From Jiangella anatolica (GTDB lineage Bacteria > Actinomycetota > Actinomycetes > Jiangellales > Jiangellaceae): a stretch of DNA of 64,000 bases. A model generated the notes under the pieces. It did not search any database. It worked only from the letters and a program-made list of their open reading frames with translations, and was not told the DNA's origin. Position 1 is the stretch's first letter; every line of letters begins with the position of its first letter. Location of the stretch: NCBI RefSeq assembly GCF_003236295.1, contig NZ_POTW01000008.1, positions 1 to 64,000 of the forward strand, written 5' to 3'. Shown here in pieces: positions 34,944-42,312 of this stretch. Position numbers and translations under genes: made by a program.

Positions 34944-35531
34944 ATGGGCCGGATCATCGTCATCGAGAACGTCAGCCTGGACGGCGTCATGCAGGCGCCG
35001 GGCGGGGCGGACGAGGACACCCGCGGCGGCTTCGCGCACGGCGGCTGGGCCGGGCCCTACGCCGACGAGGTCGCGATGCGGGAGATGGGCGAGGGGATGG
35101 CGCAGGGCGAACAGGGCGGCCCCTTGCTGTTCGGCCGGGTCACCTACCAGCAGTTCGAGGGGTTCTGGCCGAAGCAGACCGACGGCAACCCGTTCACGCC
35201 AGTGCTGAACGCCGCCACCAAGTACGTCGTGTCCACCACGCTGACCGAGCCGCTGACCTGGGAGAACTCCGTGCTCCTCGGCCCGGGCGAGCTGGCCGGC
35301 CTCAAGGACCGCGAGTCCCGGGACATCGGCGTGCTCGGCAGCGGTGAGCTGGTCCAGACGCTGCTCCGCCTCGACCTGGTCGACCAGCTCGTGCTGTCGA
35401 TCCACCCGCTCGTCCTCGGCGACGGCGCCCGCCTCTTCCGCGACGGAGCGCAGCTCGCGCCGTTCCGGCTGGCCAAGTCCGTCCCGACGACGACCGGCGT
35501 GATCATCGCGACGTACGACCGGGTCAGGTGA
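34944..35531 (+). CDS. Dihydrofolate reductase-family (RibD C-terminal-like) oxidoreductase
   Basis: A 195-residue Rossmann-like reductase of the RibD_C/YwjB type. It shows RIIVIENVSLDGVMQAPGG at the N-terminus, LLFGRVTYQQFEGFWP, KYVVSTTLTEPLTWENSVLL and DIGVLGSGELVQTLLRLDLVDQLVLSIHPLVLGDG, all typical. These proteins bind NADPH; many are uncharacterised and not true DHFR. AGGAGG lies 6 nt before ATG 34944. It is presumably the target of the divergent TetR protein. Its end overlaps the kynureninase gene's end by 8 bp on opposite strands. Confidence 0.87.
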   Translation: MGRIIVIENVSLDGVMQAPGGADEDTRGGFAHGGWAGPYADEVAMREMGEGMAQGEQGGPLLFGRVTYQQFEGFWPKQTDGNPFTPVLNAATKYVVSTTLTEPLTWENSVLLGPGELAGLKDRESRDIGVLGSGELVQTLLRLDLVDQLVLSIHPLVLGDGARLFRDGAQLAPFRLAKSVPTTTGVIIATYDRVR

Positions 35532-36756
35532 CGGCGGCCCGGGCGACGTGCTCGGGGCGGCGGTGCTCGCCGGTGGCGAGGACGGCGGCCATGTGCTCGA
35601 CCGCGTCGTACACGTCGGCGAAGCGGACGTAGAGCGGCGCGAGGCCGAACCGGGCCAGGTCAGGCTCGCGGAAGTCGCCGACGACGCGGCGGGCGATCAG
35701 CGCCTGCACGAACCCGTACGCCTCGTCCAGCCGCAGGCACAGCTGCGAGCCGCGGGCGGCGTGGTCGCGCGGCACCTCGGCCTCGACGCCGTACGGCGCG
35801 AGCCGCTCGTCGGCCAGCGTCAGGAAGAGGTCGGTGAGCGCGAGCGACTTGCGCCGCACGTCGGCGATCGCGACGCCGTCGAACGCGTCCAGCGCGGCGT
35901 CCAGGACCGCCGTGCCGATCACCGGCGTGGTGCCGCTGAGCAGCCGGCGCACGCCGTCGGCCGGGCGGAAGTCGCGCTCCAGCGCGAACGGTGTCGCATG
36001 CCCGAACCAGCCGGTGATCGGCTGGTCGACGACGTCCAGCCAGCGGGGCGCGACGTAGACGAACGCGGGCGCGCCGGGGCCGCCGTTGAGGTACTTGTAG
36101 CCGCAGCCGACGGCCAGGTCGGCGGCCCAGCCGGCGAGGTCGACGGCGACGGCGCCGGCGGAGTGGCACAGGTCCCACAGCATGACGGCGCCGGCGTCGT
36201 GCACCGCGCGGGTGACGGCGGCGCCGCCATGCATGCGCCCGAGCCGGTAGTCGACGTGGCAGAGGGAGACGACGGCGACGTCGTCGTCCAGTACGGCGCT
36301 CAGCGACTGCGACGAGGCGTCCCACCAGCGCACCGTTAGGCCGAGCAGCCGCGCGACCCCGTCGATCACGTAGGAGTCGGTCGGGAAGTTGCCCGGCTCG
36401 GTGAGGATCACCCGCCGGTCCGGCCGCAGCCGCGCGCCCGCCACGAGCAGCTTGAACAGCTGCACGCTGGTGGAGTCGCCGACGGTGACGGTGCCGGGCT
36501 CGGCGCCGAGCAGCGGCTCCAGCTTCGCGCCGACGGTCGCCGGCAGGTCGTACCAGCCGTGCGCGTTCCACGACGTGATGAGGTCGTCGCGCCACTCGGC
36601 GCCGACCAGCCGGCCGGCCCGCTCGGCCACGCCGCGGGGCAGCGGGCCGAGCGAGTTGCCGTCGAGGTAGATCAGCCCGTCCGGCAGGTCGAACCGGTCG
36701 CGCAGGTGCGCCAGCGGGTCGTCGCGGTCCAGTGCCTCGGCGTCGGTGCGCTCCAT
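35524..36756 (-). CDS. kynU: Kynureninase
   Basis: A 410-residue fold-type I PLP enzyme cleaving L-kynurenine to anthranilate and alanine in tryptophan breakdown. It shows IYLDGNSLGPLP at the N-terminus, TEPGNFPTDSYVIDG, DLCHSAGAVAVDL (PLP-binding Asp), and the Schiff-base Lys221 in GCGYKYLNGGPG, followed by GWFGHATPF. Length and motifs agree with bacterial KynU. The other kynurenine-pathway genes (kynA, kynB) are not in the window. TACGCT (36764-36769) ends 7 nt before the ATG on the minus strand, so the message is likely leaderless. Confidence 0.94.
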   Translation of the reverse strand: MERTDAEALDRDDPLAHLRDRFDLPDGLIYLDGNSLGPLPRGVAERAGRLVGAEWRDDLITSWNAHGWYDLPATVGAKLEPLLGAEPGTVTVGDSTSVQLFKLLVAGARLRPDRRVILTEPGNFPTDSYVIDGVARLLGLTVRWWDASSQSLSAVLDDDVAVVSLCHVDYRLGRMHGGAAVTRAVHDAGAVMLWDLCHSAGAVAVDLAGWAADLAVGCGYKYLNGGPGAPAFVYVAPRWLDVVDQPITGWFGHATPFALERDFRPADGVRRLLSGTTPVIGTAVLDAALDAFDGVAIADVRRKSLALTDLFLTLADERLAPYGVEAEVPRDHAARGSQLCLRLDEAYGFVQALIARRVVGDFREPDLARFGLAPLYVRFADVYDAVEHMAAVLATGEHRRPEHVARAAVT

Positions 36757-36777: not shown

Positions 36778-38256
36778 TCAGCCCACCGCCCGCTCCAGCG
36801 CGGTCGCCAGCAGCCCGCTCACCGTGCCGGGCCAGTCGCCGCCGGACGGGTCACCCATGGCACTGAACCCGATCACGACGACGATGTTGCTCACGCGGGC
36901 GATCCCGATGCCGGCGAAGGAGCTCTCCGAGCCCGGGTTCTCCGCGGTCGGCACGCTCTCGACGACCCAGGCCACCGCGTCGTCGGCGCCGTCCACGTCG
37001 ACGGCGACCGGCTCGCCCACCGTCTGCTCGCGGAACTCGCCCACCTCTCCGCACACCTCCGGCAGCGTGGTGTGCGCGGCGACGTAGCTGAACGCCGACT
37101 CGCCGTCCGGCATCAACGCCACCCGCTCGACGATGCTGGCGTCGAGATCGTGGTTGTAGCCGAGCGCGACGGCGGTGATCGCGCCGGAGTCGATCGGGTT
37201 CTGCAGACACGGTGTCCAGACCGCGTCCGGGTCCAGCTCCGGCTGGCGCACGAACCCGGTGGCGGTGCCGACCGCGGCGACATCGTCGTCGGTCAGGAAC
37301 GGGTCCTCGGCGAGCTCGAGCAGTTCCTCCGCCGGTGTCGTCGGGTCGGCCGGCTCGGTCGGCTCGCCGCCCGGGACGGTGCCCGGATCGTTCGTCGACT
37401 CGCCGGTCGGCCCTTCGGTCGTCTCCTCCGGGTTGGGTCCGGCATCGCGCAGCACCGGGTCGGTGACGCAGGACGTGGCGAACAGCGCGTCGCACATCCG
37501 CCGCGCGGCGGTCACGGGCACCTCGATGTCGGCGTCCGGGCCGTCGGGCTGTGGCTCGGTGCGGACGGTGAGGCTGACGACGTCCTGGTAGCGGACCAGC
37601 GCCGCCGTGACGGCGGAGCCTTCGTCGGTGTCCGGGTCGGGGTAGTAGCGGACCAGCCAGCCCTCGTCGCCCACGCCGTCGATGAGGAGGTCGTCGGTGA
37701 CGAACGGCGCGTCGCCGTCGTCGTCGCCGCGGGCGGGCAGGCAGGAGCGGATCTCCGCCCACACGCCGGTCACGGACTCGGCGGCCGAGAAGCGGAGGAT
37801 GTCCTGCCGGACGGCGATGTCCCCGGCCTGGTAGGTCACCTCGGCGTGCCCGAGCGGCGACGAGAGCCTCGCCAGCACGTCCGCCGGGTCGCAGTCGACG
37901 GCACTGCGCTGGGTCACCTCGGCCGCCGCCTGTCCGGTCGCGTCGGTGACGTCGCCGGCCGTCAGCAGCGCGGGGCTCAGGTCGTCAGGCGTCGTCGTCG
38001 GGTCCGTCGGCGCCTCGGTCGACCGGCTGGCCGGCGGCGCCGGCTCGGGCGTCGTCGTCAGCGGCGCCGGGTTGACGATCAGTACGCCGGCCGCGACCGC
38101 CGCCACCCCGGCCAGCACGCCGCTGGTGACCTGGTGCCGGGTCCGCTGGGCGGCCCGGGCACGGGCCGCGGCCGGGCCGGGCAGCGCGACGCCGTCGAGG
38201 TCGGCGGACAGGCCGCCGAGCCGCTGCCGCAGCTCGTCGTCGAAGTCGCCCGTCAC
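36778..38256 (-). CDS. Putative membrane anti-sigma factor, copy B
   Basis: A 492-residue single-span protein. A short cytoplasmic N-terminus (1-42, containing LPGPAAARARAAQRTRHQVT) leads to one membrane helix (~43-62), a Pro/Thr-rich linker, and a large outer domain with several cysteines and repeats of the form GDEGWLVRYY... and AAxTTLPEVC. No zinc anti-sigma (HxxxCxxC) motif is seen. Residues 23-63 align without gaps with copy A. It is co-translated (ATGA overlap) with the ECF sigma gene upstream, the standard arrangement for a sigma/anti-sigma pair. Assignment as anti-sigma factor rests on context. Confidence 0.6.
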   Translation of the reverse strand: MTGDFDDELRQRLGGLSADLDGVALPGPAAARARAAQRTRHQVTSGVLAGVAAVAAGVLIVNPAPLTTTPEPAPPASRSTEAPTDPTTTPDDLSPALLTAGDVTDATGQAAAEVTQRSAVDCDPADVLARLSSPLGHAEVTYQAGDIAVRQDILRFSAAESVTGVWAEIRSCLPARGDDDGDAPFVTDDLLIDGVGDEGWLVRYYPDPDTDEGSAVTAALVRYQDVVSLTVRTEPQPDGPDADIEVPVTAARRMCDALFATSCVTDPVLRDAGPNPEETTEGPTGESTNDPGTVPGGEPTEPADPTTPAEELLELAEDPFLTDDDVAAVGTATGFVRQPELDPDAVWTPCLQNPIDSGAITAVALGYNHDLDASIVERVALMPDGESAFSYVAAHTTLPEVCGEVGEFREQTVGEPVAVDVDGADDAVAWVVESVPTAENPGSESSFAGIGIARVSNIVVVIGFSAMGDPSGGDWPGTVSGLLATALERAVG

Positions 38257-38771
38257 GACGCCTCACCTCCCGCCGGTATCCCCGCGGCGTCGCCGGTGTC
38301 GGCGAGCAACTGCGCCAGCGCCGCCCGCCCCCGCGACAGGCGCGCCTTGATCGTCCCGGTCGGCGTGCCGGTCTCGCGCGAGATGTCGTCGACGCTCATC
38401 CCGACCAGGTGGTGCAGGACGATTGCCTGCCGCTGGCTCTCCGGGATCTGCTTGAGCGCGGTGACCAGCGCGACGTGGTCCGGGTCCGGCGACGGCGAGT
38501 GGTCCGGCGCGCCGTGCTTGACCAGCGCTGTCACGCCGTTCTTGGCCTTGCGCCAGCGGCTGGCGGCGATCCGCCAGGCGACCGTGCGGATCCACGCCTC
38601 CGGGCTGCTGGCCTGGCTGACGGTCTTCCAGCGCTGCCAGGCCCGGGCGTACGCCTCCTGCGTGCACTCCTGCGCGTCGGCGAGGTTGCCGGTCATCGCA
38701 TACATCTGGTGCAGCACGCGCCGGTGGGTGGCGTTGTAGAACTCGTCGAAGTCCGTGCTGTTCGCGGCCAT
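38253..38771 (-). CDS. ECF-type RNA polymerase sigma factor, copy B
   Basis: A 172-residue sigma-70 family protein with regions 2 and 4 only. Region 2: DFDEFYNATHRRVLHQMYAMTGNLADAQECTQEAYARAWQRW; region 4: LKQIPESQRQAIVLHHLVGMSVDDISRETGTPTGTIKARLSRGRAAL. The linker holds a basic stretch (RWRKAKNG). It directs polymerase to a regulon unknown here. The GGGGGTG before ATG 38771 is its ribosome binding site. The downstream gene is translationally coupled. It closely resembles the sigma factor of copy A, 1.5 kb upstream. Confidence 0.9.
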   Translation of the reverse strand: MAANSTDFDEFYNATHRRVLHQMYAMTGNLADAQECTQEAYARAWQRWKTVSQASSPEAWIRTVAWRIAASRWRKAKNGVTALVKHGAPDHSPSPDPDHVALVTALKQIPESQRQAIVLHHLVGMSVDDISRETGTPTGTIKARLSRGRAALAQLLADTGDAAGIPAGGEAS

Positions 38772-38776
38772 CGTCG

Positions 38777-40222
38777 TCACCCCCCGATCCGCTGCGCGGC
38801 GTGTTCGACCAGGCCCCGCATCTGTTCGGGGGAGAGCTCGTCGTCGAGCAGCCCGTAGTAGACGACGGTGACGACGTCGCCGCTGACCGCGGCGCCGTAG
38901 AGCCACTCGAGCCCGTCACCGCCCGTCAGCCGCCAGGTGGCGCCGTCGTAGCCGTCGCCGGAGACCGTGCCGGTGTCCTCCACGGCGTCGGTGGACTGGA
39001 CCGGCTGGCCGGCGGCGGCCACCAAGGTGTCGTAGTGGGCCCGCGCGGATGCGGCGTCGGGGAACGTGGCCCGCAGCTGGTCCAGGACGGCACCGCCCGT
39101 CTCCAGCGGGTCGCTGTAGAAGCGCTGCTGCAGCGACGTGGCGCCGTCGGCGAACGGGTCGACCGGCAGGTTGATGAACCCGTAGTCGGTGGGCCCGGCC
39201 GCGTCACCGCCCTCCTGGACATCGCTGCCCTGGGTGAGGGCGGTGAGTCCCGCCTCGGCGAGGTCTTCGATGAAGAGCCAGCCGTCGACGTCGCCGACCG
39301 GCTCGGGGTACACCTGCTCCCGTTCCGGCGTACCCGGGCAGTCCACGTCCGACACGGCGCAGAGCGTGGACACCGCCTCGATGGCATCCTCGGCGCCCGG
39401 CGGGCCGATGTACTCCTGACCGTCCCAGCCGCGGAAGGCGGCGCTGATGAAACCGTCGGCCCGGACGATGCTGGCCGACACGTAGGTGGCGGACTCCTCG
39501 GTGCGCGGCGGGCCGTTCCAGACCATGAGGTAGCCCTCGTCGCCGACCCCGGTGAGCCGCCAGACGTCGGACAGGTAGTAGTCGTCGCCGCTCTGCGCGC
39601 AGTCGGTGATCTCGTCGCGCAGCTGCTCGAGCCGGGCCTCGGCGCCGGTTCCGGCCGGCTCCACCCAGTGGTCGAAGCGTGACTGGACGCTGGTCTCGTA
39701 GGAGACCCCGGCCGCGGTGTCGGCGAAGTCCGGGACACAGGGCAGCCAGGTGTCGTCGGCCGGGACCTCGGCCCAGTCCAGGTCGGCCGGGTTAGGGTCG
39801 AGCAGGAAGTCGATGCCGATGAGCGCGCCGGGCGGGACGGCGAGCGAGCCGGTGCCGTCGTCGCCATTGCCGTCGCCGTTCGCGCCGCCGGGGTCGGGGC
39901 TCTCGCCGTCGCCGGTCGGGTCCGGGGTGGGCACGGCCGGTGGTGTCGACGGGGGTGGTGTCGAGGGGACGGCCGTCGGCGAGTCCGTGCCGGTCGGCGA
40001 CTCGGCCGGCTGCGGCGACGCCACGAAAGCGGGCGGGTTGACCGCGACCACGCCGAGTGCGACGGCCACCACGCCGGCCAGCACGCCGCCCGTGACCTGG
40101 TGCCGGGTCCGCTGGGCGGCCCGGCGCCGTGCGGCGCCCGGACCGGGCAGCGAGATGCCCGCAAGGTCCGATTCGAGCGACGACAAGCGCCGGGAAAGGC
40201 TGTCGTCGTGGCTGTCAGACAC
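38777..40222 (-). CDS. Putative membrane anti-sigma factor, copy A
   Basis: A 481-residue single-span protein: cytoplasmic N-terminus with LPGPGAARRRAAQRTRHQVT (26-44), one helix (~43-62), then a long Pro/Thr/Gly/Asp-rich linker and a ~320-residue outer domain with paired cysteines and WRLTGVGDEGYLMVW / WRLTGGDGLEWLYGA segments that look like an internal duplication. It starts at GTG 40222, overlapping the sigma stop by 8 nt; an in-frame ATG at 40279 lies inside the sigma gene and is unlikely. No ZAS motif. Its role as anti-sigma factor is inferred from coupling and topology. Confidence 0.6.
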   Translation of the reverse strand: MSDSHDDSLSRRLSSLESDLAGISLPGPGAARRRAAQRTRHQVTGGVLAGVVAVALGVVAVNPPAFVASPQPAESPTGTDSPTAVPSTPPPSTPPAVPTPDPTGDGESPDPGGANGDGNGDDGTGSLAVPPGALIGIDFLLDPNPADLDWAEVPADDTWLPCVPDFADTAAGVSYETSVQSRFDHWVEPAGTGAEARLEQLRDEITDCAQSGDDYYLSDVWRLTGVGDEGYLMVWNGPPRTEESATYVSASIVRADGFISAAFRGWDGQEYIGPPGAEDAIEAVSTLCAVSDVDCPGTPEREQVYPEPVGDVDGWLFIEDLAEAGLTALTQGSDVQEGGDAAGPTDYGFINLPVDPFADGATSLQQRFYSDPLETGGAVLDQLRATFPDAASARAHYDTLVAAAGQPVQSTDAVEDTGTVSGDGYDGATWRLTGGDGLEWLYGAAVSGDVVTVVYYGLLDDELSPEQMRGLVEHAAQRIGG

Positions 40223-40697
40223 GGTGGCCTCCGGTGAGAAGGGCGGGGTCGCCGGGGAGAATACGAGCCAGGGTGGCATGCGCCTTCGCGAGACGGTTCT
40301 CGACGGCCGCGACCGACGTTCCGGTCTCGGCCGCGATGTCGGCGACGGACGCGCCGGCGAGCTGCCGGACGACGATCGCGTAGCGCTGCTTCTCGGGCAG
40401 TTGCCGCAGCGCGGCGACGAGCTCGGCGCAGCCGCCGGACGGGGCCGGTCGTGCCGGACGCGCCGGGCGGCGCCGGGGCCGCCGGCGGCCGGACGCCAGC
40501 CGCCACGCGGAGCCGCGCACCCACGCCTCGGCGCTGGTCGCGGCCATGACGGCGGGCCAGTGCTGCCAGGCCCTGGCGTAGGCCTCCTGGGTGCATTCCT
40601 GGGCGGCGGAGAGGTCTCCGGTCAGCGCGTAGAGCTGGTGCAGCACACGCCGGCTGGTGGCGTCGTAGAACGCGTCGAAGTCCGCGGGCTGGCGCAT
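40215..40697 (-). CDS. ECF-type RNA polymerase sigma factor, copy A
   Basis: A 160-residue sigma factor with regions 2 and 4. Region 2 (DFDAFYDATSRRVLHQLYALTGDLSAAQECTQEAYARAWQHW) is nearly identical to copy B, and region 4 reads LRQLPEKQRYAIVVRQLAGASVADIAAETGTSVAAVENRLAKAHATL. The linker is a run of Arg/Pro ([15 protein letters not shown]). GGGGAGG precedes ATG 40697. It heads a four-gene minus-strand run sigma A, anti A, sigma B, anti B. The 193 bp upstream to the divergent DUF6350 gene hold its promoter; I see no obvious autoregulatory -35 AAC motif with confidence. Confidence 0.9.
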   Translation of the reverse strand: MRQPADFDAFYDATSRRVLHQLYALTGDLSAAQECTQEAYARAWQHWPAVMAATSAEAWVRGSAWRLASGRRRPRRRPARPARPAPSGGCAELVAALRQLPEKQRYAIVVRQLAGASVADIAAETGTSVAAVENRLAKAHATLARILPGDPALLTGGHRV

Positions 40698-40890
40698 GCC
40701 TGAACCTCCCCTGTGCCCATCGATTGTCCGCTTACACCCAGGAGGACCCGTGAGTGCGCCCCACGGTTGCACGACCAATTCGGCGATCGGGCGCGTTTCC
40801 TCGTAATCCGCTCTCGGAATACGCAGCTGATCAGCCGTTTGTCGGCGTGGTGCCGCCGAATAGTGTGCCCTTTCCGGTGACGATGGAGGC

Positions 40891-42312
40891 GTGGCCGACC
40901 TGCTGACCCGACCGCTGCTCCGGCGCGATGAGCCGGCGTGGGGGTCGCGGGTCCCGTGGTTGGCGGCGATCCTGGCGACGGCGTGGGCGCTGCTGGCCGG
41001 GTTCGCGCTGTGCGTCCTGCCGGGTGTCGCGATGTGGATCGCCGAGGGCGCGGTCGGCCCGCTCGGCGACCCGCTGCGGATCGGCTCCCGGGTCTGGCTG
41101 ACGGCGCACCGCGCCGGCCTGGAGGTCGGCGACGGGGCGTTCACGCTCGCCCCGCTCGGCCTCACGCTGCTGTTCGTGCTGCTGCTGCACCGGTCCGCCC
41201 GGTGGGCGGCGCACTCGGCCGGCGTGGCGACGACGCGGGGCGCGGCCGCCGTCGTGCTGCCGGCGGTCGTCACGTACGTCGTGGGCGCGGGCCTCATCGC
41301 GTCGCTCTCGGTCAGCCCCGGGGTGGCCGGTGATCCGCTGACGGCGATGCTGTGGGCGGCGCTGTGGTCCGCCGCCGCGGTGACGACCGGGGTGGCGCAC
41401 GAATCCGGGCTGCTGGCCGAATGGTGGTGGCGGGTGCCACCTCTGATGCGCGCGGCACTGGCCGGCGCGGCCGCGGCGGTGGCGGGGCTGGTCGTGGTGG
41501 GTGCGGTGCTGATGGGGGTCAGCCTGGTCATCCACCTCGGCCGGACCGGGGACCTCGCCACCGCCCTGGACGCCGGCCTGCTCGGCACGACGCTGCTGGT
41601 CGCCGGCTGCGCGTTGCTGGTGCCGAACCTGGTGCTGTGGTCGGCGGCGTTCGCGCTCGGCCCCGGCTTCGCGGTCGGGACGGCGACCTCGGTGGCGCCC
41701 GACGGGGTCACGCTCGGCCTGGTGCCCGCGGTGCCGCTGCTCGGCGCGCTGCCGTCCAGCCTGCCCGGCTCGGTCACCTGGCTGGTGGTCGCGGGCCCCG
41801 TGCTCGCCGGCGTGCTGGCCGGGGTGCTGGTGCACCGCCGGCTGGGCCCGGTGCGGGGCGTGTCCGCGGCGGACGTGCCGGAGGACGAGGCCGACGTCGA
41901 CGAGGTGGACGACGAGGAGGAGTCGGCGGCCGTGCCGCTGGCTCAGGCGGCGGGCGTGGCGGCCGGCGCCGGTGCGATCGCGGCGGTCGCGATGGCGGTG
42001 CTGGCGTTGCTGTCCGGCGGCTCGGTGGGTGCGGAACGGATGACGGCGCTCGGCCCGGTCCCGTGGGAGGTCGCGGCGGCGACGTTCGGCCTGGTCACGG
42101 TCCCTGCGGTGGTCGTGGTCCTGGGCCTTCGCCTCCGCCGGCGTGCGGTGGATGCCGCGGACGAGGCAGTGGACGAGGCAGTGGACGAGCCGGTGGACGG
42201 TGCGGCGCATGCGGTGGACGTCGACCCGGCGGACCGGGCAGTAGACACAGCGGAGGGTGAGCCGATCTCCGTAAAAGAAGAGGACCCACCACCTCCGCCG
42301 CCGGAGCGATAG
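40891..42312 (+). CDS. DUF6350 (PerM-like) membrane protein
   Basis: A 473-residue protein with about eight to ten hydrophobic segments (residues ~25-440) followed by a ~75-residue acidic cytoplasmic tail. It has the position of mycobacterial Rv0955 (PerM), directly before purN-purH, a membrane protein needed for cell division under stress. The tail carries tandem VDEA/VDEP/VDGA units encoded by 12-bp repeats (about 42148-42207) and ends in a Pro run. A second acidic loop (DEADVDEVDDEEE) lies near 345. GTG 40891 follows GGAGG. purN begins 19 bp downstream with its own -10-like element. Confidence 0.8.
   Translation: MADLLTRPLLRRDEPAWGSRVPWLAAILATAWALLAGFALCVLPGVAMWIAEGAVGPLGDPLRIGSRVWLTAHRAGLEVGDGAFTLAPLGLTLLFVLLLHRSARWAAHSAGVATTRGAAAVVLPAVVTYVVGAGLIASLSVSPGVAGDPLTAMLWAALWSAAAVTTGVAHESGLLAEWWWRVPPLMRAALAGAAAAVAGLVVVGAVLMGVSLVIHLGRTGDLATALDAGLLGTTLLVAGCALLVPNLVLWSAAFALGPGFAVGTATSVAPDGVTLGLVPAVPLLGALPSSLPGSVTWLVVAGPVLAGVLAGVLVHRRLGPVRGVSAADVPEDEADVDEVDDEEESAAVPLAQAAGVAAGAGAIAAVAMAVLALLSGGSVGAERMTALGPVPWEVAAATFGLVTVPAVVVVLGLRLRRRAVDAADEAVDEAVDEPVDGAAHAVDVDPADRAVDTAEGEPISVKEEDPPPPPPER
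42148..42207 (+). repeat. 12-bp tandem repeats in the PerM-like gene tail
   Basis: Units of GTGGACGAGGCA-type sequence recur in tandem (GTGGACGAGGCA twice, then GTGGACGAGCCG and GTGGACGGTGCG), encoding VDEA-VDEA-VDEP-VDGA, and are preceded by related GAT GCC GCG GAC GAG GCA. They lengthen an acidic, likely disordered cytoplasmic tail. Copy number in such repeats commonly varies between strains. Confidence 0.75.

Follow-up and report, generated by a model that had tools for sequence, protein, structure and literature searches.

Sigma/anti-sigma pairs are usually seen as insulated one-to-one modules, and their duplication is thought to yield new pathways. In the class I systems (ASDI/ZAS), such as RskA-SigK and RsiW-SigW, the gene of a single-pass regulator overlaps or adjoins the sigma gene. 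Class II anti-sigma factors, of the CnrY type, are shorter than those of class I and consist of two helices that wrap the sigma factor, in CnrY around both sigma2 and sigma4 (PMC7406223, PMC4598750). A departure from one-to-one pairing is described in PMC4256889, where FpvR of Pseudomonas aeruginosa is a single anti-sigma factor for two sigma factors, FpvI and PvdS.

The locus described here is of an ordinary kind, an ECF sigma factor with a membrane regulator; what is unusual is its evolutionary state. It lies in a window of 64,000 nucleotides from Jiangella anatolica (contig NZ_POTW01000008.1), and all of its open reading frames are present in the order given by the earlier note, four minus-strand genes with 4- to 8-nt sigma/membrane overlaps. 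These are sigA (40215..40697; ECF sigma factor of 160 aa, the diverged copy), memA (38777..40222; single-pass membrane protein of 481 aa), sigB (38253..38771; SigE-family ECF sigma factor of 172 aa, the conserved copy) and memB (36778..38256; single-pass membrane protein of 492 aa with the architecture of MemA and a diverged sensor). The overlap is 8 nt for sigA/memA and 4 nt for sigB/memB, and 5 nt separate the memA stop from the sigB start. Each membrane protein is composed of a cytoplasmic tail, a transmembrane (TM) helix, a Pro/Thr-rich linker and two PknH-like domains. A similarly large membrane-anchored regulatory part is linked to the ECF48/52/53 sigma factors of Actinobacteria as a fused extension; in Jiangella, however, the regulator is not fused to the sigma C terminus, and the genes are separate and overlapping. 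What is new is the homology of the sensors and their PknH fold, the old MemA/MemB split set against the history of the sigma factors, an invariant promoter-like motif and a widespread basic tail.

The block has a kynureninase gene (35524-36756) on one side and, on the other, a DUF6350 gene that runs divergently (40891-42312), and comparison of the DNA with itself reveals duplicated stretches of 209 nt at 79% and 111 nt at 86%. The span 36778-40697 stops at the sigA start codon, and a conserved ECF-type promoter-like element, TGCAACC-N17-GTCCT, is located just beyond it, 5' of sigA (40743..40771, minus strand). Since the Jiangella locus has this motif only upstream of sigA, the four genes would form one transcription unit, that is, a single operon.

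The search sample held 60 relatives; the Jiangella genomes numbered 12, the window's own counted in. All 12 carry memA and memB in one syntenic block, and sigA is missing in one genome alone (G003); given this conservation, the gene layout is not a product of chance. Haloactinopolyspora and some Phytoactinopolyspora have one sigma-membrane pair of the memA type, and other Phytoactinopolyspora have both types in reversed order, with the memB type upstream. In the membrane-protein tree, the memA clade contains all three genera and the memB clade contains Jiangella and Phytoactinopolyspora, both with support of 100/99, and where the sister genera have a single membrane protein it is an orthologue of memA. 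By this tree, the MemA/MemB split predates the radiation of the family and is older than the divergence of Jiangella from Phytoactinopolyspora, with memB lost in some lineages. A recent duplication of the membrane genes within Jiangella is ruled out by this tree. The earlier proposal of one sensing module that was duplicated and whose sensor then diverged is thus right about duplication and divergence, but the duplication is old, and both sensors keep the two-domain PknH-like architecture.

The cytoplasmic tails (residues 1-42) are encoded at 40097..40222 in memA and 38131..38256 in memB, both on the minus strand. They are putative anti-sigma elements, marked out by their conservation relative to each other and by the wider tail alignment. 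The gapless alignment of the two proteins that had been noticed around the helix extends over residues 1-62, and the TM helix begins at residue 43 in both. Across Jiangella, MemA and MemB are 63% identical in the tail, 72% in the TM helix and 24-26% in the outer domains. R32 and R34 are invariant in the tail alignment (n = 22 sequences), and the model of MemA predicts helices at 4-20 and 28-50, with low pLDDT. No sign of gene conversion of the tails was seen in Jiangella, where A-B tail identity is 0.785 within and 0.769 between genomes.

Among 70 TIGR02983-like sigma factors from Actinomycetes loci outside the Jiangella/Phytoactinopolyspora/Haloactinopolyspora family, 59 adjoin a protein whose first TM helix starts at residue 33-52; a basic R..G..R-like motif, with the G replaced by A in Jiangella, precedes the helix in 54 of those 59 partners, and an 8-nt sigma/membrane overlap is the commonest spacing (40/70). 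By this survey, a tail of about 43 residues that bears a basic motif and leads into a helix is the standard neighbor of TIGR02983-like sigma factors in Actinomycetes, which points to a widespread and little-described group of short-tailed membrane regulators. Two further observations concern such pairs. Tandem sigma-membrane pairs with near-identical tails also occur in Nocardioides, together with a further diverged sigma gene upstream, and a contig labeled as a Spirochaetaceae metagenome-assembled genome (MAG) bears an actinobacterial-looking sigma/membrane pair, probably through a binning error.

The zinc anti-sigma motif is missing, as the earlier note had stated: there is no Cys in either tail, and neither an Hx3Cx2C motif nor an anti-sigma domain was found in the cytoplasmic part of MemA or MemB with Pfam and NCBIfam. 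The separate anti-sigma class suggested on that ground is not peculiar to this locus; what stands is a regulator type that widely accompanies TIGR02983-like sigma factors in Actinomycetes. The overlapping single-pass regulator gene is shared with class I, but the Jiangella tail, at less than 50 residues, departs from that class in length as well as in these missing signatures. With class II (CnrY) it shares a very short cytoplasmic part and a membrane anchor, and two helices are predicted in it at low confidence, a likeness of size and prediction. The PDB search, however, detected no sequence similarity to CnrY, and MemA and MemB include their own sensor, whereas CnrX is separate. The tail profile, which has only 47 positions, retrieved no solved anti-sigma factor and no CnrY chain from the PDB at E up to 10, and PDB sequence searches that started from MemA, MemB or the tail profiles returned nothing relevant. 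The tails are plausibly short, non-zinc, class-II-like anti-sigma elements working in a manner like that of class II, and the anti-sigma activity of MemA and MemB is putative.

The outer parts have diverged at the level of identity given above, as had been noted from the sequence, but they are homologous end to end (hhalign Prob 100, E 5.9e-53), and this profile comparison rules out wholly unrelated outer domains. In the structure models (mean pLDDT of 78.7 for MemA, good, with the outer part mostly >90; 70.1 for MemB, fair), each outer part is a tandem of two domains of the PknH sensor fold. The best VIA-align match of both models is the PknH extracellular domain (4ESQ), followed by the mycobacterial TiME protein. 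The second domains, MemA residues 310-481 (38780..39295) and MemB residues 305-492 (36781..37344), match 4ESQ with a Z of 15.0 and an rmsd of 2.9 over 157 residues (MemA 312-481) and a Z of 13.6 and an rmsd of 3.5 over 160 residues (MemB 306-492). The first domains have the same general fold as the second: that of MemA (residues 129-305; 39308..39838) is PknH/Mog1-PsbP-like, and that of MemB (residues 90-271; 37444..37989) is PknH/TiME-like and matches 7cu9_A with a Z of 11.6 and an rmsd of 4.3 over 158 residues. All four domains are encoded on the minus strand. Pfam gives no match to PF14032 (PknH_C) in MemA or MemB at the gathering score of 27 bits; independently of the models, however, the family is hit weakly (E 7e-5 to 3.5e-4) by membrane partners in Motilibacter, Nocardioides and a Frankiales MAG, at 20.9-23.3 bits and thus likewise below that score.

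According to the models, the outer domains share the fold of the PknH sensor (PF14032, PDB 4ESQ), known from mycobacterial Ser/Thr kinases; the fold alone says nothing of the ligand. They differ from PknH in forming a tandem pair, in scoring below the Pfam threshold and in being mounted on a short sigma-binding-type tail rather than on a kinase, so that PknH-type sensor domains would be coupled to transcription without a kinase. Sensors with a single domain also exist: the memB-type protein of P. halotolerans matches domain 1 only, and that of Phytoactinopolyspora G021 matches domain 2 only. Within Jiangella, domain 1 of MemA appears to occur in several types, the window's closely resembling that of G010, a second being shared by most others and a third occurring in G006, which suggests mosaic exchange or diversifying selection.

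SigA and SigB are both, by their sequences, SigE-family (TIGR02983-type) ECF sigma factors. Regions 2 and 4 (Sigma70_r2 and r4_2) score 48.0 and 53.4 bits in SigB and 29.1 and 47.4 bits in SigA, all above the Pfam cut-offs; against the TIGR02983 cut-off of 141.55, SigB just passes (142.0) and SigA is below (99.5). The near-identity previously reported for sigma region 2 holds for AQECTQEAYARAWQ, which is the same in both, but the whole proteins are only 50% identical. SigA differs at 30 positions that are fixed among SigB-type sigma factors. The changes K142E, A143N and R147K fall in the predicted -35 recognition helix, and most Jiangella have VENRLAKA as the SigA signature there. Promoter recognition by SigA may be altered or gone. 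In the sigma tree, SigB clusters with the single-copy Haloactinopolyspora sigma factor (support 97/92), and SigA is a long branch of unsure placement; because of this length, the AU test does not reject (p 0.30) that SigA arose in Jiangella alone. Raw Nei-Gojobori proportions gave pN/pS values of 0.39 for sigA and 0.19 for sigB, the former about twice the latter yet well below 1, and 0.74 for memA and for memB. SigA is kept in 11/12 Jiangella and purifying selection still acts on it, so a function and a partner of its own are possible.

The histories of sensors and sigma factors come apart in four genomes, on which the pattern rests (G003, G021, G019 and G017). In the one-contig genome of Jiangella G003, the order is memA, sigB, memB with sigA cleanly absent, and no second close sigma factor was found in that genome, the next best being 31%. 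Phytoactinopolyspora G021 carries a memB-type gene without a sigma gene of its own, followed by a sigma gene and memA; its genome has one close sigma factor. The two sigma genes of P. halotolerans (G019) share an identical stretch of about 495 nt, save for one indel; where the membrane gene begins, identity falls to about 75% or lower. In P. limicola (G017), the sigma genes are 98.9% identical over 375 nt, an overlap limited by the contig end. In both of these species, sigma factors that are 99-100% identical adjoin sensors of the old A and B clades, and because the neighboring membrane proteins belong to these clades, it is the sigma genes, and not the sensors, that have been homogenized. This is most simply explained by gene conversion, judging from the pattern, and SigB would be recognized by the tails of both MemA and MemB. 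The absence of sigA in G003, the memB-type gene without sigma in G021 and the near-identical sigma genes beside diverged sensors speak against a reading of the locus as two independent one-to-one modules. With the sensor diverging and the sigma factor either unchanged or lost, these are natural cases for studying how a new input joins an old output.

In this family, every unit has the promoter-like motif, TGCAACC-N17-GTC, 5' of its first gene, at 26 places in the loci scanned. It is kept upstream of both units in two-unit genomes and of two sigma-less membrane genes. Among more distant relatives it is found in 8/65, mainly those closest in sequence, and in none with the reversed control. The motif would be the sigma factor's own promoter, and other ECF sigma factors of the genome could also read it.

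The genes, overlaps, synteny, tail conservation, motif, sigma-less membrane genes and sigma homogenization, all read from the DNA, fit the following mechanism. The cytoplasmic tail of each membrane protein, of about 43 residues, would keep the ECF sigma factor inactive until the extracytoplasmic two-domain PknH-fold sensor binds its signal. Release of the sigma factor, probably through a change of conformation or through cleavage of the membrane protein, would then let it drive transcription from TGCAACC-N17-GTC promoters, both of the operon itself and of a few envelope genes. We lean, by a narrow measure, toward such an autoregulated envelope-sensing operon, in which MemA and MemB both act on the SigB-type sigma factor, giving two sensors and one output, and SigA is an accelerated, dispensable paralogue with promoter recognition perhaps changed or lost. 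Joint control of one sigma factor by two membrane anti-sigma factors whose PknH-type sensors are diverging, an arrangement kept by sigma gene conversion or loss and in which SigA is expendable, is held more tentatively, at a little short of an even chance. It would also depart from one-to-one pairing, in the reverse sense to FpvR, with two regulators serving one sigma factor.

SigA-MemA and SigB-MemB could instead be insulated modules with separate signals and target promoters, as is suggested by the conservation of SigA in 11/12 Jiangella, most of them showing the distinct signature VENRLAKA, its pN/pS of 0.39 and tails that differ between MemA and MemB at about one-third of positions. We regard this as unlikely, though deserving of some weight, given that G003 lacks SigA yet has an intact MemA and the promoter motif, that G021 has a memB-type gene without sigma, that both sensors of P. 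halotolerans and of P. limicola adjoin one sigma sequence and that a single promoter element serves both Jiangella pairs. SigA might also be a functionless gene decaying toward loss, which would account for its long branch, its looser constraint than SigB, the charge reversal in the recognition helix and its clean absence in G003; an open frame and a consistent signature in 11 genomes, with pN/pS well below 1, make decay improbable. It is more doubtful still that the membrane proteins are positive partners, or independent envelope proteins co-transcribed with sigma, rather than anti-sigma factors: translational overlap with the sigma gene, a basic tail conserved before the helix in many genera and retention of that tail while the sensor was free to diverge all speak against it, even though no recognizable anti-sigma domain is present and RskA is reported as a dual activator-inhibitor (PMC7509140).

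Beyond the operon preferred here, the strict motif gave 68 genome-wide matches in 12 genomes versus 43 for the reversed pattern, and counts this near the control lend no support to a large regulon. The motif recurs in 10/12 Jiangella upstream of a LytR-CpsA-Psr (LCP) gene and in 8 Jiangella upstream of an AfsR-like gene, sites that were found via the motif and so have perfect cores by construction, and that a different sigma factor might recognize; the LCP link was not found outside Jiangella. At the AfsR/SARP-like regulator gene of these eight Jiangella, the motif stands 7 nt before the GTG and would give a leaderless mRNA. In at least 8 Jiangella, including the window's own genome (G000:C178:24593), TGCAACC-N17-GTCAT lies between a STAS-like gene and cutA, pointing into the 3' end of cutA, and downstream of it there is a conserved stretch with no clear sense open reading frame, possibly a small or antisense RNA.
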